A stretch of DNA of 60,949 bases, from the NCBI GenBank assembly GCA_903844155.1, contig CAIMSU010000093.1:1-60949 (forward strand), read 5' to 3'. Of this stretch, positions 18,922-31,130 are shown in pieces (the first letter of the stretch is position 1; every line of letters starts with the position of its first letter). Below the pieces are notes generated by a model. That model searched no databases. It was not told where the DNA came from and saw only the letters and a program-made list of their open reading frames with translations. Made by a program: the position numbers and the translations under genes. Source of the stretch: an uncultured Pseudomonadota bacterium. Lineage in GTDB: Bacteria; Myxococcota_A; UBA796; SXON01.

Positions 18922-19548
18922 CTATTTCAGCACCACATTCGAAAAGCTGATGTCCACCCGATCACCGTCCGGCTCGGCGAGGCTCACCGCGCTCACTCGC
19001 CAGGGATCCGGCACCAGCGTCAGCGAGATGCTCGCGATCAACTTGTGGAGTTGAGCATCCTTCGGGACGAGGACGGCGCCGGTCGCGGAGTAGCTGACGG
19101 TGAAGTCGCGGTCGACGGCCGAGGCGTCTGCCTGCATCCACACGAGCAGGCTCGTCGCCAGGCGGTTCGCGTCGGGAACGCTGGCGAGATCGATGACGTC
19201 GTTGGTGCCAAGCTCCGGGTAGCTCATCGTTGCAATCGAGTTCTTCAGCGTAAAGCTGCTCTTGGACGGCGTCTCCACGACCCAGGAGAGGTCCTGCGGA
19301 CGGGAGAAGTGGACCGTGCCAGTGCTCGTCAGCGGCGCCTTCAGCACGGCGCGGTGCTGAACCTGCGTGAATGTCGCAGTCAGATCCTTCGTTTTTGCTA
19401 ACTCGGGCCAGACGCCCGCGTCTACGGCATGCGCCTGCGCGGGGAGAAAAAGCCCGACGACCGCGATACCCGCGCCAATCGCCATGCTCAATCGGGTGTT
19501 GTTGCGGCTCACGGGCCTGTGGAACCTGCTGATCTTCGGGATTTTCAC
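18922..19548 (-). CDS. LolA-like periplasmic (lipo)lipid carrier protein
   Basis: Periplasmic carrier of the LolA fold, 208 residues from the ATG at 19548. The signal peptide ends at PAQAHA; the body has the LolA pattern TKDLTATFTQVQHRAVLKAP...STGTVHFSRPQDLSWVVETP, then a long strand-rich region ending in VDISFSNVVL. In APE and related clusters a LolA paralog is thought to shuttle the lipid product, rather than lipoproteins, across the periplasm; the context here supports that role. An alternative ATG at 19485 would leave only 2 bp overlap with the divergent acyltransferase gene but gives a signal peptide without positive charge, so the longer form is preferred. That makes the two coding sequences overlap head to head by 65 bp. 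Confidence 0.8.
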   Translation of the reverse strand: MKIPKISRFHRPVSRNNTRLSMAIGAGIAVVGLFLPAQAHAVDAGVWPELAKTKDLTATFTQVQHRAVLKAPLTSTGTVHFSRPQDLSWVVETPSKSSFTLKNSIATMSYPELGTNDVIDLASVPDANRLATSLLVWMQADASAVDRDFTVSYSATGAVLVPKDAQLHKLIASISLTLVPDPWRVSAVSLAEPDGDRVDISFSNVVLK

Positions 19549-20866
19549 GCTGTTGCTCCTCGTAGTGGCGGGGGTCTGTCAGGGGCTCACCCTGCCGTTC
19601 GACCCCGAGCAGCGCGTATCCGCCTGGCTCACCCGGTGGCTCTGGGGCCACGCGATGATCGACGCTCACCTGCCCTTCTGGCGGGTCACGGTCACGGGGA
19701 CAGAGCGACTGGCGGGCAAGCCAAGGATCCTCACAGCAAACCACCAGTCGATGCTGGATATTCCCCTGGTGACGCGGCTTCCCGTCCCGGTGCGCGTCGT
19801 CGCCCGTCCGGGTGTGTTCCGGATGCCTGTTTTTGGGACGATGGCGCGCGTCGGCCGGCACATCGCGCTGGACGGCACCTCGCGCGAGACGCTCGAACGG
19901 GCGATGATCGAGACAAAAGCCGCGATCGACGATGGCGCGTCGGTGCTCGTCTTCCCCGAGGGCACGCGGGGCGACGGCGCGGAGCTGCAGCCCTTCAACC
20001 GCGGGGCGTTCGAGCTGGCGCTGCAGGTTGGCGCGGATGTGCTGCCCATCGCGATCTCGGGGACCGACACCGCCTTACCGAAAGGCTCGCCCTACCCTCG
20101 CGTGTGCTTCGCGCGGTTTCACATCCAACTGCTGGAGCCCGTCGCGGTCGCGGGGAAAAACCGGCGTCAGCTCGCGCGAGTCGTGCGGGAGCGCATCGTC
20201 GCGGCCCTGGCCGGGCCGAGGCCGTGGGAGGTGACGGCGCGGGTCAAGGTCCGGTACGCCGCGCTGGGACGAGGAAGGGCGGGGTGGGCGTGGGGAAAGA
20301 CAACGTTTGACCCGGTGTTCTGGGCGCTGCACGAGCGGATGCCGACCGAGGGACGCTGGCTGGACGTTGGCGCAGGCGAGGGGCTGCTCGCGGGCTACCT
20401 GGAGGCGGCGGGTCACCGCCTCGACGCGCACGGCCTGGACCCCGACGCAGCGCGGATCGCCCAGGCGCGAGCGCTTTACGGCGAGGGCTTCGCGGTCGGT
20501 GATGCGCGCACTGCCGCGCTCGGCGACGGTCTGGACGTCGTCACCTGCATCGACGTCCTCCACTACCTGACGGTCGAGGAGCAGGCCGCGGTGGTCACCC
20601 GGCTCGTCGGCGCCACACGGCCAGGCGGGCTGGTGATCGTGCGCGATCCGGACGTTGCGCGGGGCGTGCGCGGGGCGCTCACGGTCGCGGCGGAGGGCGC
20701 GCTCGTCGCGGCTGGGCGTCACCAGGGGGACGGCGTGCGGGCGCAGGGGGGCGCGGGGTTGGAGGCGCTCTTTCGGGCGATGATGGAGGACGTCAGGGTC
20801 GAGGATTGCTCCGCTGGGACGCCGTTTGCGAATGTGTTGCTGTCGGGGCGCAAAAGTTCGGGCTGA
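19484..20866 (+). CDS. 1-acyl-glycerol-phosphate-type acyltransferase fused to a methyltransferase
   Basis: Two-domain fusion of 460 residues. Residues 1-245 are a PlsC/AGPAT acyltransferase: N-terminal hydrophobic segment (LLIFGIFTLLLLVVAG), NHQSMLD (H87, D92; HX4D catalytic pair), and FPEGTR (157-162). Residues about 285-455 are a class I SAM-dependent methyltransferase with WLDVGAGEGLLAGYLE as motif I, acidic GLDPD, and CIDVLHYL. In aryl polyene clusters acyltransferase and methyltransferase genes are neighbours; here they form one polypeptide, suggesting acylation and methylation of the same lipid at the inner membrane face. ATG 19484 overlaps the divergent lolA start region. The methyltransferase substrate cannot be read from the sequence. 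Confidence 0.85.
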   Translation: MLNRVLLRLTGLWNLLIFGIFTLLLLVVAGVCQGLTLPFDPEQRVSAWLTRWLWGHAMIDAHLPFWRVTVTGTERLAGKPRILTANHQSMLDIPLVTRLPVPVRVVARPGVFRMPVFGTMARVGRHIALDGTSRETLERAMIETKAAIDDGASVLVFPEGTRGDGAELQPFNRGAFELALQVGADVLPIAISGTDTALPKGSPYPRVCFARFHIQLLEPVAVAGKNRRQLARVVRERIVAALAGPRPWEVTARVKVRYAALGRGRAGWAWGKTTFDPVFWALHERMPTEGRWLDVGAGEGLLAGYLEAAGHRLDAHGLDPDAARIAQARALYGEGFAVGDARTAALGDGLDVVTCIDVLHYLTVEEQAAVVTRLVGATRPGGLVIVRDPDVARGVRGALTVAAEGALVAAGRHQGDGVRAQGGAGLEALFRAMMEDVRVEDCSAGTPFANVLLSGRKSSG

Positions 20867-21169: not shown

Positions 21170-24100
21170 GTGCTGTCCCTTTCCCACCGCGCGCGCCTGA
21201 TCCTGCTCGCGGTGCTGTGCATCGTGCTCTCAGCCGTCGCGACGCGCGTGAAGATCTCCCTCGATCTGGCCGATGCCCTGCCCAAGGGCGGGGACGCGGG
21301 CGACGCGTTCGCCGATGTCAGCCGGTTCTCGCTGCTCGACACCATCCTCATCGACGTGAACGGCGAAGGACACTCCCAGACGGAGCTTGGCGCTGCCGTC
21401 GACGCGCTCGGCCTGACCCTCCAGAAGCGCGTCGGGACGGACCTCGCCAGCGTTCGCTACACCTACGGCATGGCCGACGGCATCGGCCTCTCCACCGCCG
21501 CCCAGCCCTCGCTGGTGGTCCTGACCGACACTTCAACCCTCGCCGACCGCCTCTCCCCCGAAGGGATGACCCGCGCGCTTGAACGCTCCAAAGCCCAGCT
21601 CTTCGGGCCGGCCAGCGTCCTCGCCGCCCGTCAGCTCGCGCACGACCCCCTCGGGCTCGCCACCACGTTCACGACGCGCCTGCAGGCCGGCCAGCAAGCC
21701 GGCACCCACCTCGTCGCCGGTCACCTGCTCTCGGCGGACGGCACCCACGCGCTCATCCTCGCCCGCGCCGCGTCCCCTGCCCTCGGCACGCAGCCGGACA
21801 GCCCCATCATCGTCGACCTGAAGGCCGATTTGGCGACGAGCGCGCTGCCGGCCGACTGGATCGGCTCCCACCGCTACGCCGCCGAGGCCAGCCAGCAGAT
21901 CCAGAGCGAGGTCAACAAGGCCGTCAGCGCCGGCACAATCGGCGTGCTGTTGGTCTTCCTGATGGCGTTCCGCTCCATCCGCCCGATCCTCGGCACCTTC
22001 CCGCCGCTGTTCGTCGGCGGGATCTTCGCGACGGCGGTCGCGGCAGTGATCTCGCCGATCCACGGCATTGCGATGGCGTTTGGCGGGGCGCTGGCGGGCA
22101 TGGGCGTCGACTATTGGATCCACCTGTACCTGGCGGGCGTTCGGGACGGGGTGAAGGCGACCTACGCGGAGCGTGTGGCGCAAGGTGACCGTGCGCTGCG
22201 CGAATTGATGCCGGCCTACCTCATCTCTGTCGCGGCGACCATCCTGGCGTTCTTCGCGCTGGCGACGAGCGCGTACCAGGCCGTGAGCGACCTCGGCATC
22301 ATCGGCATCGGCTGCTCGATCGGCGCGTTCATCACGATTGTGCTGATGGGTCCGGCGATGTTCGGCGTGCTGGCCAGGCCGGGCGACAAGGTCCCGTGGC
22401 TGCCGCTGCCCCTGCGGGTGCCGGCGGTGGTGGCCGGCGCCCTGCTGCTCGGTCTGGCGCTGCTCGGAACGCGGGCTTTGAGCATCCGTTTTGACGGTGA
22501 CCCGCGGTCGATGGACTCGCGCCTGCCCGCGACCGCAGCGCTCGAAGACGCGATCAAGACCCGGTACGGCGGCGAGACGACGCAGGGGCTTGTCGTGGCC
22601 GAAGGCGACAATCTCGACGAGGCGCTCGATCGACTCCAGCCTGCCGTCGCCGCGCTCGCCGACGTGAACGGGATCCAGGTGCACTCGCCGCTCGACCTGC
22701 TCCCCGCGCCGGCCACCCGCAGCCAGCGACAGGCGCTCGTAGCCGACCTCCCCGCCCTGGAGGCGCGCTTTGTCGCAGCAGCGACGGCCGAGGGCTTTGA
22801 CGCAGAGGCGCTCCTGCCCGGCTTCCGGGCGAGCCTGGCGGGGGTCTCCGCGCCAACGTTGGCCACGTGGTCCGCGACGGCGGGTTCGGAGATCCTCGCG
22901 CGCACCGTGCAGGCAGATCCAGACGGACACACGCGCGTGGCCGCCGTTGTCGTGGGGGTGAGCGAGGCCGCGCTCGCGCACGCCGGGCGTGAGTTGAACC
23001 TCGCGACCGCGGATCGGCCGGACGAGACGAGCGCCGACCCCAACCGCGCCCACTTCGTCTACCCGGCGGGCGTTGCGGCAGCGGGCGCCTCGCGCATCCG
23101 GGACGAGCTGATCTCCAGGTCTGGCCTCGCTTTGGCCGCGGTGCTGGCGTTCATGTTGCTGCGCTACCGTGACACCGCGCAGGTCGTCGCTGCCAGCCTG
23201 CCGTCGGTCGGGGCGGCGCTCGGCACGCTGGGGGTGCTCGCGTGGTCCGGGATCGCGCTCACGCCGGTCAGCGGTCCGGGGTTCGTCCTCGTCCTTGGTC
23301 TGGCGTTTGACCAGGGGATCTTCATGGTCGAGACGCGGAACGAGGAGATCGCCCGTCGAGGGGCAGAGGCGGCCCGCGGAGGCGCCCGGGCGAGCCTGCT
23401 GCCGATGGCGTCTGGCCCGTCGCCCTCGTTCTTCTCGGCCCGCGCGGCCATCTTCATCGCGCTGGCGACGGCGTTCGCGGGGTTCGTCGGACTGTGCTCG
23501 GCGGAGCACCCCGCGGTCTTCGGCGTCGGCCTGACCGAGTCCCTCGGCATCGCGTTCACCGCCCTCACGGCGTTCGGCATCGTCCCCGCCGTCCTGACCG
23601 ATCGTGGCGAGTCGACCACGCGGCGATGGGCACGGGGGCTGGGTTTTGCGCTCGTCCTGCTCTTCCAGGTCGATGCCCTCATAGCCCTGCAGGGCTGGAT
23701 CCATCCGCCGCCCGCGCCCGACCACCCAGCGCCCCTCCCGCCCCTGACCGGCACCGCGTCCGACCGTCGCGTGGGCCCCGACCGCCTCATCCGCAGCCAC
23801 GGCATCTGGGTCGAGCACCTCGAAGGCGACCCGTACACGATGGGCCGCTCGGACGCGACCCTCGCCGGCCCGCTCCGCGACCGCAACGAAGCCGGGATCG
23901 TCGACGAGTTCTTCAAGCACGTGAAGAATCCGCTGGTCCAATATGGGCTGTTCCGCGCCGTCCCCATGTTCGGCGGGGCGATGGCGACCTACGTCCCCGA
24001 CCGCTACCTGAACGAGCTGCGCGGCTTCACGGACACCGGCGACGACAGCACGTGGGGCTGGATCGCACCGCACTACGCCCGAAAACTCTGCTACCACGCC

Positions 24101-25240
24101 ATCCACGACGTAGGGCAGGCGATGGTCGACTCGCCGTTGCTCGGCGCGTGTACCGGGTTCGTGGCGAACGGCGCGCGGGTGAAGGACGGGCACGCGCTGC
24201 TGGCGCGCAACTTCGACTTTGACGGGGGACCGTCGTTTGACGCCGACAAGGCCGTGATCGCCGTGAAGGGTCAGGGCGTGCTCGGTTTTGTGCACATCGC
24301 GATCGTCGGGCTGGAAGGGGTGGTCACGGGGTTGAACGAGGCGCAGATCGGCATCGGGGTGCTGGCGGCGGCCTCGGACGCGCGTATTCATCTTGGAACG
24401 CCGATGATCTTCATCGTGCGCGAGATCCTGGAGAACGCGCGGTCGCTCGACGACGTGCAGAAGATCCTGGACGCGCGGCGAGGATTTGTGAGCGAGGGGA
24501 TCCTGGCTGTCGACGGAAAGACCGGGGAGACGGCTGTTTTCGAGGTCACGCCCGACGACGTCACGCGATTGCCGCCAACCCCACCCGCGCCCGGACAACC
24601 GCCGGGGATCGCTGAGGGCCTGACGAACCACTTCCGCGGTAAACACGCCAACGACCTTGCGAATCACCTGCGGATGATCGAGGGCACCACCACGGCGAGG
24701 CTGGCGCGCATGGACGAATTGCTCGCGAGGACGCCGGTGATCGACGAGGCTGCCGCGATCGCCATCCTGCGGGACCGAAAGGGCGTCGGCGACGTGGACC
24801 TCCCCCATGGGCATGAATCGGCGATCAACGCGGACATTGCGGCGCACGGCGCGGTCATCGACGCGACCGCGGGCACCATCACCGTCTCGACGACGCCGAA
24901 CCTCGCAGGGCAGTTCCTCCGGTTCTCCGTGGACAAGCTCCTCGCGGGCGACCTGGTACCCGAGGTGGTTGCCGACGCGGACGACCCGGACGGCACCTGG
25001 CGGGTCAAGAACGCGCGGGACCTGACCTGGACAGCGGGCGATCTGCGCGGTGCAGACGCCGAAAAGCACCTGCGCCACGCGCTGGCGCTCAATCCCGGCG
25101 ACGTCGACGCCTCGCTCGCGCTTGGGCGACTGCTCGCGGGCGAAGGCCGGAAGGCGGAGGCGACGCCGTTCCTCCAAGCCGTGATCGCGCGCCCGGAACG
25201 CCCAGAACAGGCGCGTGACGCGGAAGAGGCGCTGCGATGA
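21170..25240 (+). CDS. MMPL-family lipid exporter fused to a C45-type Ntn hydrolase/acyltransferase and a TPR tail
   Basis: Very large fusion (1356 residues). Residues 1-850 are an RND/MMPL transporter: first helix near 7-25, a periplasmic loop, helix block about 240-430 with the family segment GALAGMGVDYWIHLYLAG, a second loop, and helix block about 640-850 with GLAFDQGIFMVETRN. From His877 a C45/acyl-CoA:6-aminopenicillanic-acid-acyltransferase-like Ntn domain begins (HGIWVEHLEGDPYTMGRS); its likely self-cleavage nucleophile is C994 in GACTGFVANG, followed by GHALLARNFDFDG. The last 55 residues (DAEKHLRHALALNPGDVDAS) read as a TPR. MMPL proteins export lipids in APE and mycobacterial systems; the Ntn domain may attach or release an acyl or amide group during export. 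GTG 21170 starts it; the stop overlaps the next ATG. Confidence 0.85.
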   Translation: MLSLSHRARLILLAVLCIVLSAVATRVKISLDLADALPKGGDAGDAFADVSRFSLLDTILIDVNGEGHSQTELGAAVDALGLTLQKRVGTDLASVRYTYGMADGIGLSTAAQPSLVVLTDTSTLADRLSPEGMTRALERSKAQLFGPASVLAARQLAHDPLGLATTFTTRLQAGQQAGTHLVAGHLLSADGTHALILARAASPALGTQPDSPIIVDLKADLATSALPADWIGSHRYAAEASQQIQSEVNKAVSAGTIGVLLVFLMAFRSIRPILGTFPPLFVGGIFATAVAAVISPIHGIAMAFGGALAGMGVDYWIHLYLAGVRDGVKATYAERVAQGDRALRELMPAYLISVAATILAFFALATSAYQAVSDLGIIGIGCSIGAFITIVLMGPAMFGVLARPGDKVPWLPLPLRVPAVVAGALLLGLALLGTRALSIRFDGDPRSMDSRLPATAALEDAIKTRYGGETTQGLVVAEGDNLDEALDRLQPAVAALADVNGIQVHSPLDLLPAPATRSQRQALVADLPALEARFVAAATAEGFDAEALLPGFRASLAGVSAPTLATWSATAGSEILARTVQADPDGHTRVAAVVVGVSEAALAHAGRELNLATADRPDETSADPNRAHFVYPAGVAAAGASRIRDELISRSGLALAAVLAFMLLRYRDTAQVVAASLPSVGAALGTLGVLAWSGIALTPVSGPGFVLVLGLAFDQGIFMVETRNEEIARRGAEAARGGARASLLPMASGPSPSFFSARAAIFIALATAFAGFVGLCSAEHPAVFGVGLTESLGIAFTALTAFGIVPAVLTDRGESTTRRWARGLGFALVLLFQVDALIALQGWIHPPPAPDHPAPLPPLTGTASDRRVGPDRLIRSHGIWVEHLEGDPYTMGRSDATLAGPLRDRNEAGIVDEFFKHVKNPLVQYGLFRAVPMFGGAMATYVPDRYLNELRGFTDTGDDSTWGWIAPHYARKLCYHAIHDVGQAMVDSPLLGACTGFVANGARVKDGHALLARNFDFDGGPSFDADKAVIAVKGQGVLGFVHIAIVGLEGVVTGLNEAQIGIGVLAAASDARIHLGTPMIFIVREILENARSLDDVQKILDARRGFVSEGILAVDGKTGETAVFEVTPDDVTRLPPTPPAPGQPPGIAEGLTNHFRGKHANDLANHLRMIEGTTTARLARMDELLARTPVIDEAAAIAILRDRKGVGDVDLPHGHESAINADIAAHGAVIDATAGTITVSTTPNLAGQFLRFSVDKLLAGDLVPEVVADADDPDGTWRVKNARDLTWTAGDLRGADAEKHLRHALALNPGDVDASLALGRLLAGEGRKAEATPFLQAVIARPERPEQARDAEEALR

Positions 25241-26004
25241 GCGTCTGGTGGCCCGCGGCTGGAACGAGCTTGGACGTACCAAAATCGACGACGTCAGCTT
25301 TTCGCACATTCCGATGTGCGAAAAGTGACGTCGTCGGTTTTCGTATGTCCTGGGAGCGGGCGAAGGGGCGGGCGTGGCGCGCAGGGGCGATGCTTCGCGG
25401 AACGGCGGTCGCGGCCCTGGGGATCGCGATGCTGACGAGGCCGGCGTGGGCGATGTGCGGCGTTCCCGAAGTGACCGACATGCCGGTCACCATCGGCATC
25501 GAGACGCACGGGCACCACATCGGCGGGACGGGGATCGTGACGATGACGGAGCTTGGCGTTGGGAACCATGTGGTCTGGTCGCTGACGCTGCTGTCGCCAG
25601 GCGGGCTGGCGATGTTCACGGCGACCGGGTCGTTCCGGGAGGACGTCGCGGAGACCCCGCCGACCATCACAACGGGCCTGGACGCCTGGAAGCCGTGGCT
25701 GGAGAAACTACCGTTGGGGCGGGACTTGCGGGTGGCGTTCCAGACCGAAGGTGACGGCCAGCCAGGGGCGCGTCGTGACCGCGAGGCATGCGCTGGAGGC
25801 ACAGTGCGAACCCGCTTCGTCCCAAGCGGCGACACCGAGCCTTTCTTGATCGCCCGCCGCCACTGGCACGGCCCCGGCGGCCCGGCCCGCGCGCTCGTCT
25901 ACAACGACCGCGTCATCCTCCACGATCCGCTCCGTGGCTACACCCTCACCATCGTCGCGCCCGCCCGTCAGCTTCCGCACGCCCCTTATTCGGACGAAGA
26001 ATGA
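25237..26004 (+). CDS. Exported protein of unknown function, start region carrying a palindromic repeat
   Basis: Not recognised. The frame opens with ATG 25237, overlapping the MMPL stop (ATGA), and closes by overlapping the next ATG in the same manner, so it sits tightly in the operon. A clear signal peptide (LRGTAVAALGIAMLTRPAWA) begins only at residue 52, giving a likely functional start at ATG 25390 (or 25345). The first 50 codons include palindromic repeat copy 2, read through in frame, suggesting the repeat landed between an original start and the signal peptide. The mature part is strand-rich with a Cys near the N-terminus (AMCGVPE) and ends in a segment HDPLRGYTLTIVAPA. Operon position suggests a periplasmic partner in the lipid export pathway. 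Confidence 0.65.
   Translation: MSVWWPAAGTSLDVPKSTTSAFRTFRCAKSDVVGFRMSWERAKGRAWRAGAMLRGTAVAALGIAMLTRPAWAMCGVPEVTDMPVTIGIETHGHHIGGTGIVTMTELGVGNHVVWSLTLLSPGGLAMFTATGSFREDVAETPPTITTGLDAWKPWLEKLPLGRDLRVAFQTEGDGQPGARRDREACAGGTVRTRFVPSGDTEPFLIARRHWHGPGGPARALVYNDRVILHDPLRGYTLTIVAPARQLPHAPYSDEE
25272..25350. repeat. Palindromic repeat family A, copy 2 (at a gene start)
   Basis: Arms 25272-25309 and 25314-25350 with the same TCCG loop as copy 1. The outermost bases are GGAC/GTCC instead of CCAC/GTGG in copy 1, so both sides changed together and pairing is kept. It lies in the open frame of the exported-protein gene without introducing a stop. Confidence 0.85.
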
Positions 26005-27854
26005 GGCTCGACCGCATCCTCGTCACCGCGCTGGCGACCGCCGTGGTCGTCGAATGGCTGCGTTCGCCCGTCTCAGGCCCCGTCTGGCCGATTGCCCTCG
26101 CGTTGGTCTCGGCAACGCTTTTTCTCCTCGTCGCCCGCCGACTTCCCACGCCCGCGCCGCCGCCGTCTCCCGCACGTCCCGCCGTCCTCATCCCAACGCA
26201 CAACAACCACACGAGCATCGGCGACGTCGTGACCCGGGCCCTCGGCACCCTCAAGCACCCGCATGGCGAGGAGGTTCCGGTCTTTGTCGTGGACGATGGC
26301 AGCACGGACGGCTCCGGCGCGCTCGCGGAGGACGCTGGCGCCATCGTCGTCCATCACGGCTACAACCGGGGAAAGGGCGCTGCGCTGCTCACCGGCATGC
26401 AGGCCCTCGCCCGCGCCGGGTACACCCACGCGATCTGCCTCGACGCGGACGGGCAGCATCACCCCGAGGATCTCCCGGCGTTCATCGCGGCGATCCATTC
26501 AGATCCCTTCGCGATCCTCGCCGGCGTTCGCGATCTGGCGACGGCCCCGGGGATCAGCCGGTTTGGACGGCGGTTCTCCAACTTCTGGATCTGGGTGGAG
26601 ACCGGCTGGCGCGTGGCGGACAGCCAGTGCGGCTTCCGTGCCTACCCGCTCGGGCCGGTGCTGGCGTTGGACCTCGGCTCCAGCCGCTACGACCTGGAGG
26701 TGGAGGTGTTGACGCGCGCGCTCTGGGCCGGAGTAGCAGTGCGCGACCTGGCCTGCCTCGTCACCTATCCGCCGAAAAAAGAGCGTGTAACCAGCTTTCG
26801 CCCGATCCTCGACAACGCGCGGATCACCTGGCTCAACATCAAGCTGATCGCCGAGCGCATCCTCTGGCCACCGTACTGGTTTCCGCGGCCGGGCTCGGCT
26901 CGGGGGCGCTGGGACGCGGCCTCGCGCGGGTTCCCGCTCGGCTGGCGCTTTGTATTCGGCGTTGTACGCCTGCTCGGGCGACGTCCTGCCGTATGGATCG
27001 CGCGGACGGTCTCGCTCTGGTACGTCCCCTTCGCGCCCCGGGGGGGTCTGGCCGGCTACCTCGCGCGCGTGAGCCCGAACGTGCCGGGTTGGCGGGCGCG
27101 GGCGAGGATCTATGGGAACTTTGCCGAGGTCCTCGTCGACCGGATGGCCTGTGCGGTGCAAGGCCCAGCCGCGTTCCGGTACGAGCACGAGGGCACGATG
27201 GCGATGGTGGAAGCGTTCGCGGGGGCGCGTGGGGCGCTGCTGCTCTCGGCCCACCTCGGGAACATCGAGTGCGTTGCCGGGCCAGGCGGGTCGGACGGAA
27301 AGCAGGCGGAGGACCGACTGAAGGTCCTGCACATCCTGCGGTTTGAGTCGGGAAGGGACCAGGGCCAGGCGGTGCTGGAGGGCGTCGACCCGCGCTGGCG
27401 CCCGCGGATCATCCCGGTCAACCGGGCGGATGGTTTCTCAGCGCTCAGCGCGCTGCGGGTCCTCCGCGAGGGCGGGGTCGTCGCGATGCACGGCGACAGG
27501 CTGATCGACGATCGGTCCGTGACCGTCGACCTCCTCGAGGCGCCGTGTCGGGTGCCGGCCGGCCCCTGGTTGCTCGCCGCGCTGGCCCACGTGCCGGTGC
27601 TCATCGTCGGCTGCTTCAAAGAGGGCGAGACCTACCGCGTGGTGTGCTCCGAGCCGATGGAGTGCGTGTTTGACCGCGCGCAACCCCGGGATGTCCAGAT
27701 CCACCGGTGGGCGCAGGCCTACGCCGATCAGGTCGGAACCTGGGCCCGCCGTTGGCCCGACCAGTGGTACAACTTTCATGACTTGTGGAGCCAGACATCG
27801 CCCGACGACGGACCCGCCGGGCCAGACCGAGGCTTGCCGGACGCGCCTTCGTAA
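26001..27854 (+). CDS. Family 2 glycosyltransferase fused to LpxL/HtrB-like lipid acyltransferase
   Basis: Bifunctional membrane-associated enzyme of 617 residues. A hydrophobic N-terminus (about 1-50) is followed by a GT-A domain (about 50-290) with VLIPTHNN, VVDDGSTDG, the DxD-like motif CLDADGQHH, and a DSQCGFRAYP acceptor segment, as in dolichol-phosphate-mannose-type GT2 enzymes. The second half (about 310-600) is a lysophospholipid/lauroyl acyltransferase of the LpxL family: SAHLGNIE supplies the HX4E pair, and GGVVAMHGDR and the tail WYNFHDLW follow. This same GT2-acyltransferase fusion is a hallmark of aryl polyene clusters, where it is thought to build the glycolipid anchor. ATG 26001 overlaps the upstream stop (ATGA). 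A plausible role is assembling a glycosylated, acylated carrier for the ACP-bound product. Confidence 0.88.
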   Translation: MRLDRILVTALATAVVVEWLRSPVSGPVWPIALALVSATLFLLVARRLPTPAPPPSPARPAVLIPTHNNHTSIGDVVTRALGTLKHPHGEEVPVFVVDDGSTDGSGALAEDAGAIVVHHGYNRGKGAALLTGMQALARAGYTHAICLDADGQHHPEDLPAFIAAIHSDPFAILAGVRDLATAPGISRFGRRFSNFWIWVETGWRVADSQCGFRAYPLGPVLALDLGSSRYDLEVEVLTRALWAGVAVRDLACLVTYPPKKERVTSFRPILDNARITWLNIKLIAERILWPPYWFPRPGSARGRWDAASRGFPLGWRFVFGVVRLLGRRPAVWIARTVSLWYVPFAPRGGLAGYLARVSPNVPGWRARARIYGNFAEVLVDRMACAVQGPAAFRYEHEGTMAMVEAFAGARGALLLSAHLGNIECVAGPGGSDGKQAEDRLKVLHILRFESGRDQGQAVLEGVDPRWRPRIIPVNRADGFSALSALRVLREGGVVAMHGDRLIDDRSVTVDLLEAPCRVPAGPWLLAALAHVPVLIVGCFKEGETYRVVCSEPMECVFDRAQPRDVQIHRWAQAYADQVGTWARRWPDQWYNFHDLWSQTSPDDGPAGPDRGLPDAPS

Positions 27855-29137: not shown

Positions 29138-29440
29138 ATGCCCCCCACTGATCCGTCCGCGCCGAGCCCCGCTGTCGTCGACCTGATCCTGCCCATCAAG
29201 CAGATGATCGTCCGCGTGCTGATGCTTGAAGGCGTGGCGCCGACGGACATCCCGGACGACGGCCCGCTGTTTGGCGCCGGCCTCGGACTGGACTCGGTCG
29301 ACGCCCTGGAGCTGGCGATCCACGTGGAAGAAGCGTTCGGCGTGAAGATGCCGGACGACGCCGGGACCCGGCGGGCATTCGCATCCGTGCGGGCGTTGGC
29401 GGAGTTCGTCGTCGAGCGCCGGGCGACGGGCGCGGCGTGA
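29138..29440 (+). CDS. Acyl carrier protein, aryl-polyene-cluster type
   Basis: Carrier protein of 100 residues. The segment PLFGAGLGLDSVDALELA, with Ser of DSV as phosphopantetheine site, followed by EEAFGVKMPDD and FASVRALAEFV, is the form I associate with ACPs of aryl polyene and dialkylresorcinol clusters. ATG 29138 is preferred over the in-frame ATG 28973, whose extension would translate the palindrome. A 9-base inverted repeat, CGGAAGACT at 29034-29042 and AGTCTTCCG at 29129-29137, pairs the leader with the bases immediately before the start codon and could mask the ribosome binding site. The stop overlaps the halogenase-like GTG, so carrier and enzyme are translationally coupled, suggesting the enzyme works on a substrate tethered to this ACP. 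Confidence 0.9.
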   Translation: MPPTDPSAPSPAVVDLILPIKQMIVRVLMLEGVAPTDIPDDGPLFGAGLGLDSVDALELAIHVEEAFGVKMPDDAGTRRAFASVRALAEFVVERRATGAA

Positions 29441-30657
29441 GCTCACACCAGGACTTTGTGATCATCGGGGCGGGGCCGACCGGCTGCGCCCTGGGGGCCT
29501 ACCTCGCGCGCGGGGGGGCGAGCGTCACGCTGGTGGAGGCGGTGGAGCGGCCCGAGAGCGTCGTTGGCGAGTCCATGTTGCCGTGTTCGCGCGTGGTGTT
29601 CGACGAGCTTGGGCTGGACACGACCGGCTTCCTGGTGAAACGCGGGGCGGTGTTCTGCGCTTCGGAGGCGGACGGCGGCGGTTCCGTGCGGTTCGACTTC
29701 TCGGAGGCGGAGGATCCGGTCTACACGCATGCATGGCAGGTCCAGCGCGAGGTGTTCGACCTGCGGTGGCGGGACGTCGCAACGGCGCACGGCTGCGCGA
29801 TCGTCTACGCGAAGGTCACGGAGGTGAACGTGGCGGGCGGGCGCGTGGAGTCCAGCGCTGGCGCGTTTGAGGCCGGGCGGATTGTCGACACGGGCGGGCG
29901 GACGATGTGGCTGTCGCAGAAGCTTGGCCTGCGGGTGGGCGACGCCCGGCTGAAGAACAGCGCGGTCGGCACCCGCATGCGCGGCGTGCGTGCGCTTGGA
30001 CGCGATCAGCCCGGTGACATCACGATCTGCTGCATCCCGGGCGGGTGGATCTGGATCATCCCGTTCGGCGAGGGAATCGCGTCCGTTGGTGTGGTGATGA
30101 GCCCGGACTGTCCGCTTCGCGGCTCCGCGGAGGAGCGGTTCAACGGGGCCATGGCGCTCTCGCCGGAGGCCTGGTCGCGCCTCCAGGACGCCGAGCGCAT
30201 CCTCCCGTTGCGCGGGCTCCAGGACTTCACCGCGAGCTCGAAGAGCTTCCACGGCCCCGGCTTTGCCCTTTGCGGCGATGCAGCCACGTTCATCGACCCG
30301 GTGTTCAGCTCCGGTGTGCTCCTCGGCCTCTGCGGCGCGCGCTCGCTCGCCCCCGCGCTCCTCGACGGGTCCGAGTCCGCCCTCGACCGCTGGCAGGCGG
30401 AATACCGTGACGGCGCCGGGATCTTCCGCAAGGTCATCGACCACTGGTACGCTGGCGACTTCATGACCGTCGCCCTCGCCGAGCCCCGCCTGCAGAAGCC
30501 CTACTACCGGCGCGGAATCGTCTCGCTGCTCGCGGGCGACGTCTACAACCCCGCCCGCACCAGCCCGCGCCGCATGGCCGAGCGCATGGGCGAGCTGGCC
30601 GCGAAGGTCCGGGAACACGGCGGCGCCACCCGTACGACAGGCGAGGCGACCGGGTGA
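29437..30657 (+). CDS. FAD-dependent halogenase-like monooxygenase
   Basis: Flavoprotein of 406 residues: dinucleotide-binding loop VIIGAGPTGCALG (about 8-20), a GES-type motif (VVGESMLPC), GWIWIIP at 203-209 which matches the flavin-halogenase signature GWxWxIP, and CGDAATFIDPVFSSG near 280-295. The Pro-x-Phe-Ser-Ser-Gly segment is typical of halogenases acting on carrier-bound or phenolic substrates (CmlS/PltA-like group) and of the FAD oxidoreductases found in flexirubin clusters. GTG 29437 overlaps the ACP stop by 4 bp. Either chlorination or hydroxylation/oxidation of an ACP-bound aromatic or polyene group fits; a geranylgeranyl-reductase-like role is the main alternative. I could not assign a catalytic Lys with certainty. 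Confidence 0.82.
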   Translation: MSSHQDFVIIGAGPTGCALGAYLARGGASVTLVEAVERPESVVGESMLPCSRVVFDELGLDTTGFLVKRGAVFCASEADGGGSVRFDFSEAEDPVYTHAWQVQREVFDLRWRDVATAHGCAIVYAKVTEVNVAGGRVESSAGAFEAGRIVDTGGRTMWLSQKLGLRVGDARLKNSAVGTRMRGVRALGRDQPGDITICCIPGGWIWIIPFGEGIASVGVVMSPDCPLRGSAEERFNGAMALSPEAWSRLQDAERILPLRGLQDFTASSKSFHGPGFALCGDAATFIDPVFSSGVLLGLCGARSLAPALLDGSESALDRWQAEYRDGAGIFRKVIDHWYAGDFMTVALAEPRLQKPYYRRGIVSLLAGDVYNPARTSPRRMAERMGELAAKVREHGGATRTTGEATG

Positions 30658-31130
30658 TCCGCCGCTACTTCGCGAAGCTGCGCGCGCAGCTTCAGGCCAT
30701 CCTCGCCGCCAACCTCAGCCCTGGCAGCATCGGCCGGGCCGTGGGCATCGGCGCGTTCATCGGCGCGCTCCCGATCTACGGCATCCACCTCGGCGTGTGC
30801 GTCGTCGTCGCGCGCTTCTTGAAGCTGAACGAGGCCGTGATGTACGGCGCCGCGAACATCTCCAACCCGTTCTTCGCCCCGTTCCTGATCGCGGTCGAGG
30901 TCGAGATCGGCGAGTACATGCGGTACGGCAAGGTCTCGCCGGCCGATACGTTGGCGTTCGGGCACTCCTTCTGGGGCATGCTGCAAACCGCGCCGGACCT
31001 GTTCCTGTCTTGCGTGTACGGCAGCGTTCCCGCCGGGATCGTCCTCGGCGCGTTGCTCGGACCCCTCGCCTTTCTCATCGCCAACCGGCGGGTTAGCCGG
31101 GGGGATGGCCGACCCCCAGATCCCCCCTGA
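30654..31130 (+). CDS. DUF2062 small membrane protein
   Basis: Integral membrane protein of 158 residues fitting DUF2062: [43 protein letters not shown], then the conserved SNPFFAP motif, and two further helices ending at LAFLIANRR. The function of the family is not known, but members commonly accompany GT2 glycosyltransferases and lipid/envelope clusters. GTG 30654 overlaps the stop of the halogenase-like gene (GTGA), placing it as the last gene of the coupled ACP-halogenase-DUF2062 unit. Its 3' end overlaps the deoC start by 26 bp. Confidence 0.85.

Follow-up and report, generated by a model that had tools for sequence, protein, structure and literature searches.

Why would a bacterium build a lipid exporter and a C45-type N-terminal nucleophile (Ntn) hydrolase into one polypeptide? 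The question is raised by a gene at positions 21170–25240 (forward strand) of a 60,949-nucleotide stretch of DNA, hereafter the window, from an uncultured Pseudomonadota bacterium placed by GTDB in the Myxococcota_A (UBA796; SXON01; contig CAIMSU010000093.1, assembly GCA_903844155.1). The initial annotation, made from the sequence alone, had described the gene as an MMPL exporter, a C45 hydrolase and a TPR protein joined in one open reading frame, and all three parts are indeed found in a single frame encoding 1356 residues. Here we report that this fusion, carried by uncultured myxobacteria from fresh water, is real and conserved within its order, that it sits in an aryl-polyene/flexirubin-type export module, and that its hydrolase domain is predicted to face the periplasm. 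We consider it reasonably likely that the fusion exports the product of a pigment-lipid pathway of the aryl-polyene/flexirubin type, with a periplasmic C45 domain acting on the exported lipid.

A conserved single-frame fusion

A search of the order found the fusion protein in 20 of 63 genomes. With a C45-domain profile, exporter and C45 domain were recovered in a single frame, 1255–1510 residues long, at 16 places (window included), in 16 genomes spread over several families of the order, and four further places are interrupted solely by contig ends. When the window gene was compared with four same-genus relatives, differences were biased toward the third codon position over the MMPL part, the junction, the C45 domain and the TPR segment alike. 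C45 was the most conserved part in all four pairs (81–83%, compared to 72–76% for MMPL). A frameshift or assembly join of two genes, named at the outset as what would refute the fusion, is excluded, because the same fusion occurs in one frame in 16 genomes and the reading frame is conserved through the junction. The homologues and the codon-position pattern likewise exclude a chance open reading frame in GC-rich DNA, and a long antisense frame (21533–25309, reverse strand) was taken as a GC artefact.

The initial annotation had also called for a search for the same arrangement in other genomes, which yields 15 other assemblies of the order with a single-frame fusion, and had stated that its reader knew of no such protein; our literature search found no paper describing an MMPL-C45 fusion. 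A scan of genome contigs returned close relatives only, and sampling beyond the Myxococcota comprised two Bacteroidota records (Aureispira and Persicobacter). One record that carries this myxobacterial cluster (L056, CALQBK020000001.1) is titled Bifidobacterium breve, and is likely a misnamed metagenome-assembled genome (MAG).

The exporter part (residues 1–812; 21170–23605) matches PF03176 at residues 624–821 (29.2 bits, cut-off 20.5). Hydropathy gives 12 transmembrane (TM) helices with two large loops, the pattern of RND transporters, with TM4 placed via its DY motif. The TM4 proton-relay pair D314-Y315 is present and makes proton coupling of the exporter plausible. TM10 carries D714-Q715; in the alignment, D-Q is found in 13 members, including the whole genus of the window, and D-Y in the others.

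The fused domains group as a single clade in the C45 tree (support 100/99), pointing to a single origin of the fusion. Nested inside this clade is a stand-alone TM-C45-TPR protein, L049 (contig 54 of genome G013), which by its position is a later split of the fusion. At L049:10472–14239, the TM-C45-TPR gene is followed by a stand-alone LpxL-type acyltransferase, an LpxL half lacking GT2, and then by a further gene that resembles a methyltransferase by eye.

The C45 domain and its membrane anchor

The transporter part had been drawn to about residue 850. Its assignment as an MMPL exporter held, but an additional thirteenth helix at about residues 826–844 (23645–23701), between exporter and C45, had been missed. 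TM13 is preceded by a K/R-rich stretch (four K/R) and followed by none. Every stand-alone C45 homologue examined starts with one TM helix that aligns to TM13, often with a Pro-rich stretch (xPPx) behind it, and at this position the Bacteroidota-cluster MMPL proteins lack a helix. Since TM13 is the counterpart of the N-terminal anchor of stand-alone C45-TPR proteins, the fusion point would coincide with the anchor helix of a C45-TPR protein that was bound to the membrane, and C45 is expected on the periplasmic side, as hydropathy and the positive-inside rule predict.

The C45/AAT domain itself (residues ∼885–1262; 23822–24955) matches NF040521 over residues 885–1207 (123.7 bits, cut-off 85) and PF03417 over residues 1006–1205 (39.4 bits, cut-off 23.2). 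The candidate nucleophile proposed earlier, C994 within GACTGF (codon 24149–24151), and the RNFDFD motif (1013–1018) are both in place; 39 of the 40 sequences aligned have Cys at the C994 position, and R1013, D1016, N1056, N1153, R1177 and R1180 are conserved. Solved relatives surfaced only with a family profile, a phmmer search of the PDB with the single sequence having given chance matches only. The profile, built from 38 relatives, aligns with isopenicillin-N acyltransferase (IAT, 2x1d) over the alpha part and much of the beta part (E 1.8e-13); C994 coincides there with the catalytic Cys, and the N-x-D motif is in register. The NAAA beta subunit (6dy3) aligns as well, beginning with residue 1, a Cys that falls on C994 (E 2.7e-9), and the profile also matches acid ceramidase (E 3e-5). 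All three are Ntn enzymes acting on acyl chains. By these sequence profiles the domain belongs securely to the Ntn family, in agreement with the C45 assignment made initially. A distant TM-C45-like homologue (L091:8833–10539, genome G165) lacks the nucleophile Cys, with GFAF replacing GCTxF, and is possibly a non-catalytic paralogue.

In the fused members, Gly or Ala precedes the nucleophile, and the chain is predicted to cut itself between A993 and C994, giving C994 as a new N-terminus. The earlier description of a single chain thus holds for the reading frame and may not fit the mature protein. Beyond the C45 domain lies the TPR-like segment (residues 1295–1342; 25052–25195). Taken alone, the window protein falls below the PF14559 cut-off here (22.4 bits versus 25), a weak match; a family profile does match consensus TPRs. 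Three members (L040, L042 and L043, from G010, G017 and G015) have lost the TPR end, and in two of these the search alignment continues beyond a TGA stop.

An export module and its proposed role

The genes around the fusion, which the initial annotation did not connect with it, make up an aryl-polyene/flexirubin-type export module. On one side lie a LolA-like periplasmic carrier (18922–19548, reverse strand; nearest NCBIfam model LolA2_flexi, 63.9 bits versus an equivalog cut-off of 125) and a fusion of a PlsC acyltransferase with a methyltransferase (19484–20866, forward strand; start uncertain, 19367 or 19484). On the other, all on the forward strand, lie a homologue of the LolB-like DUF3261/ApeN proteins (25345–26004; hhalign probability 99.6 to a family in which L045:2426–2929 matches DUF3261) and an ApeJ-like fusion of a GT2 glycosyltransferase with an LpxL-type acyltransferase (26001–27854; PF00535, PF03279). 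The transport set is therefore complete in the window (RND exporter, LolA-like and LolB-like carriers, glycosyltransferase/acyltransferase and PlsC), and the synteny of LolA, fusion, DUF3261, GT2-LpxL and PlsC-methyltransferase genes is kept in relatives. The module continues with an acyl carrier protein (29138–29440; PF00550), a FAD-dependent halogenase/oxidoreductase-like protein (29437–30657; PF04820) and a DUF2062 membrane protein (30654–31130). In the window and in genome G001, the LolA/PlsC-methyltransferase pair (18922–20866) lies inverted with respect to the fusion; in most relatives LolA lies directly upstream of the fusion on the same strand.

A polyene core adjoins the fusion in several relatives. 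In G013 (L037), its neighbors encode four proteins of ketosynthase type (three with PF02801, one with Ketoacyl-synt_2), a FabA/ApeP-like dehydratase, an acyl carrier protein, a FAD amine-oxidase-like protein and a polysaccharide deacetylase, and similar core sets are found in G031, G021 and G023. The window locus holds only the acyl carrier protein and the FAD enzyme of this core. Homologues of the polyene core (ketosynthases, a FabA-like dehydratase, a CrtI-like FAD enzyme and a TonB-type receptor) are scattered over three other contigs of the same genome (C159, C308 and C330; L105–L107). Aromatic amino-acid lyase (PF00221) was considered as a clue to the starter unit and proved uninformative: all eight genomes searched have two copies, and the model cannot separate ordinary histidine-degradation copies. 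Tandem pairs of PF00221 genes occur in fusion-bearing genomes (G013:C99, G010:C28, G021:C114, G023:C138 and G055:C455).

How might such a protein work? The MMPL/RND part would extract the lipid, made on the cytoplasmic side, or flip it to the periplasm, probably driven by the proton gradient. TM13 would cross back out and position the C45 domain where lipid leaves the exporter in the periplasm. After the cut before C994, some 109 residues (885–993, the alpha part) would stay on the exporter, with the beta part (994–1356) bound non-covalently. C994, as the N-terminal nucleophile, could then accept an acyl group of the lipid as it emerges and hand it on to a hydroxyl or amine of another lipid or to water, after which the LolA-like and LolB-like (DUF3261) proteins would deliver the product to the outer membrane. 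The periplasm offers no acyl-CoA, and because of this the acyl donor is expected to be a lipid. We infer both the class of the substrate lipid and the reaction on it, acyl transfer or hydrolysis by C45. The earlier suggestion that the exported lipid is acylated, or released from an amide, fits the enzyme's relatives and its predicted periplasmic side, and the link drawn between enzyme and lipid exporter stands; the suggestion had been made without TM13, which would place C45 where acyl-CoA is absent. A stronger version, in which export and acyl remodelling of the pigment lipid form one coupled step without ATP or CoA, carried out by a self-processed periplasmic transacylase with a covalent alpha part and a non-covalent catalytic beta part, is one that we put forward only tentatively.

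Several observations weigh against assigning the fusion to pigment-lipid export with a catalytic C45. The ketosynthase genes lie outside the window, with homologues on other contigs, and no member of the family has a known product. The LolA-like protein scores below the LolA2_flexi equivalog cut-off. TM10 is mostly D-Q rather than D-Y in the window's family, making proton coupling less certain. The second copy in G013, L049, has reverted to a stand-alone C45, and the physical link is thus not indispensable. Structure models were of low confidence (AlphaFold residues 800–1356 with 8 sequences, mean pLDDT 49; residues 1–1200 with 7 sequences, pLDDT 40), and we gave their details no weight; Foldseek ranked the IAT precursor 2x1c first for the low-confidence model (E 0.011), with no match under E 0.001. 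The Ntn fold, whose absence had been the other refuting condition named at the outset, has its support in the sequence profiles rather than in these models.

Among the alternatives, it is possible, though not probable, that C45 is a trimming or recycling hydrolase that, like acid ceramidase and NAAA, strips an acyl group (N-acyl amide or ester) off the lipid or a by-product and does not build the final lipid. These two lipid amidases are among the closest solved relatives, water or a lipid is the likelier acceptor in a periplasm without acyl-CoA, and polysaccharide deacetylases occur in the relatives' clusters. However, the best-scoring solved relative, IAT, is an acyltransferase, and conservation within a biosynthetic and export module argues, weakly, for a building step. 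Slightly less likely is the view that the fusion fixes dosage and place only, with C45 acting on the pathway lipid uncoupled from transport and TM13 marking a neutral join. Unfused TM-C45-TPR proteins in the Bacteroidota and in other Myxococcota fit such a join, as does the renewed split in L049, but the fusion has been kept in 16 single-frame copies from several families, with coding conserved through the junction.

That the exporter moves some other lipid (e.g. a hopanoid, sterol or ornithine-lipid-like molecule), the polyene context being incidental, seems to us distinctly unlikely. The MMPL part does show a weak match to the hopanoid transporter HpnN, and no linkage to the ketosynthase core is seen in the window's genome. 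Yet HpnN was rejected as an identity, since its equivalog cut-offs are far off (61.5 bits versus 751.85; 39.9 versus 1100), core and export genes stand together in G013, G031, G021 and G023, and Bacteroidota clusters have the same make-up. An assembly or sequencing join has a negligible chance of being the explanation: although the window's genome is a MAG of 375 contigs, no support for a join was found, and the fusion recurs in 15 other assemblies of the order, with coding conserved through the junction, and in named GenBank MAGs from several projects.

Comparison with known systems

With pigment-lipid export as the favored role, the fusion bears on the anchoring of aryl-polyene and flexirubin lipids and on their transport to the outer membrane. 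The E. coli aryl-polyene transport set comprises ApeD, ApeJ, ApeL, ApeM and ApeN (PMC8253772), and the same set recurs in flexirubin (PMC3992019) and arcuflavin (PMC3949708) clusters. The E. coli system shares with the window the RND exporter, the LolA-like and LolB-like (DUF3261) carriers, the glycosyltransferase/acyltransferase and the lysophospholipid acyltransferase. It differs in that its 18-gene table (PMC8253772) lists no C45/AAT protein, and its ApeM is a plain RND transporter.

The solved enzymes differ from the fusion in their setting. The profile alignment with IAT (2x1c, 2x1d) takes in its alpha part, nucleophile Cys and N-x-D motif, but IAT is a soluble fungal peroxisomal enzyme that uses acyl-CoA, whereas the C45 domain of the fusion is predicted to be periplasmic and tethered to an exporter. 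NAAA, whose beta subunit begins with the Cys that falls on C994, and acid ceramidase are lysosomal lipid hydrolases without exporter or TPR. Stand-alone TM-C45 proteins of other Myxococcota (L074–L090) have the same anchor and C45 domain, and some a TPR, but they lack a fused exporter, show no window-like MMPL in the surroundings fetched, and are more distant in the tree. In one family of these (f15; L084–L088 and L090), the TM-C45 genes directly adjoin a GT2 gene similar to the corresponding half of the GT2-LpxL fusion, giving a two-gene unit; no polyene cluster was seen in the one f15 neighborhood examined (L085).

The closest parallels are the flexirubin-type clusters on plasmids of two Bacteroidota, Aureispira anguillae (NZ_AP026868) and Persicobacter psychrovividus (NZ_AP025298). 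Each encodes an MMPL-PlsC-methyltransferase fusion, named by NCBI in Aureispira as 'trifunctional MMPL transporter / lysophospholipid acyltransferase / SAM methyltransferase', a name under which we found no papers, and, two genes further along, a 'C45 family peptidase' as a protein of its own, with an N-terminal TM helix and a TPR-like C-terminal stretch. MMPL, PlsC, methyltransferase, FAD oxidoreductase and TM-anchored C45-TPR are thus shared with the fusion locus, and LolA and DUF2062 additionally with Persicobacter; an AMP-ligase adjoins C45 in the Bacteroidota clusters and was not found at the fusion locus. The joins differ. In the Bacteroidota, MMPL is joined to PlsC-methyltransferase and C45-TPR is separate, whereas here PlsC-methyltransferase is separate and MMPL is joined to C45-TPR. 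In the tree, the C45s of the Bacteroidota clusters are sister to the fused clade (100/97), apart from the other stand-alone myxobacterial C45s. Because these clusters hold the same parts fused otherwise, with sister C45s, exporter, PlsC-methyltransferase and C45-TPR consistently occur together, and only the way they are joined has been rearranged. The fusion is accordingly a novel arrangement of already known cluster components, re-joining partners of which the separate TM-anchored C45-TPR protein had escaped the initial annotation.

A C45 gene of this kind is already in print. In a legend of PMC5932025, the aryl-polyene cluster of F. johnsoniae is listed with an acyl-CoA:6-APA acyltransferase orthologue group, without a role, and the papers we found assign none to the C45 of flexirubin clusters. 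The fusion ties C45 to an exporter. Made through the enzyme's own membrane anchor, it is a Rosetta-stone clue that would place C45 in the periplasm, beside a specific exporter. Were the protein a coupled transacylase, the same step would supply the missing function of the orphan C45 in Bacteroidota flexirubin clusters.

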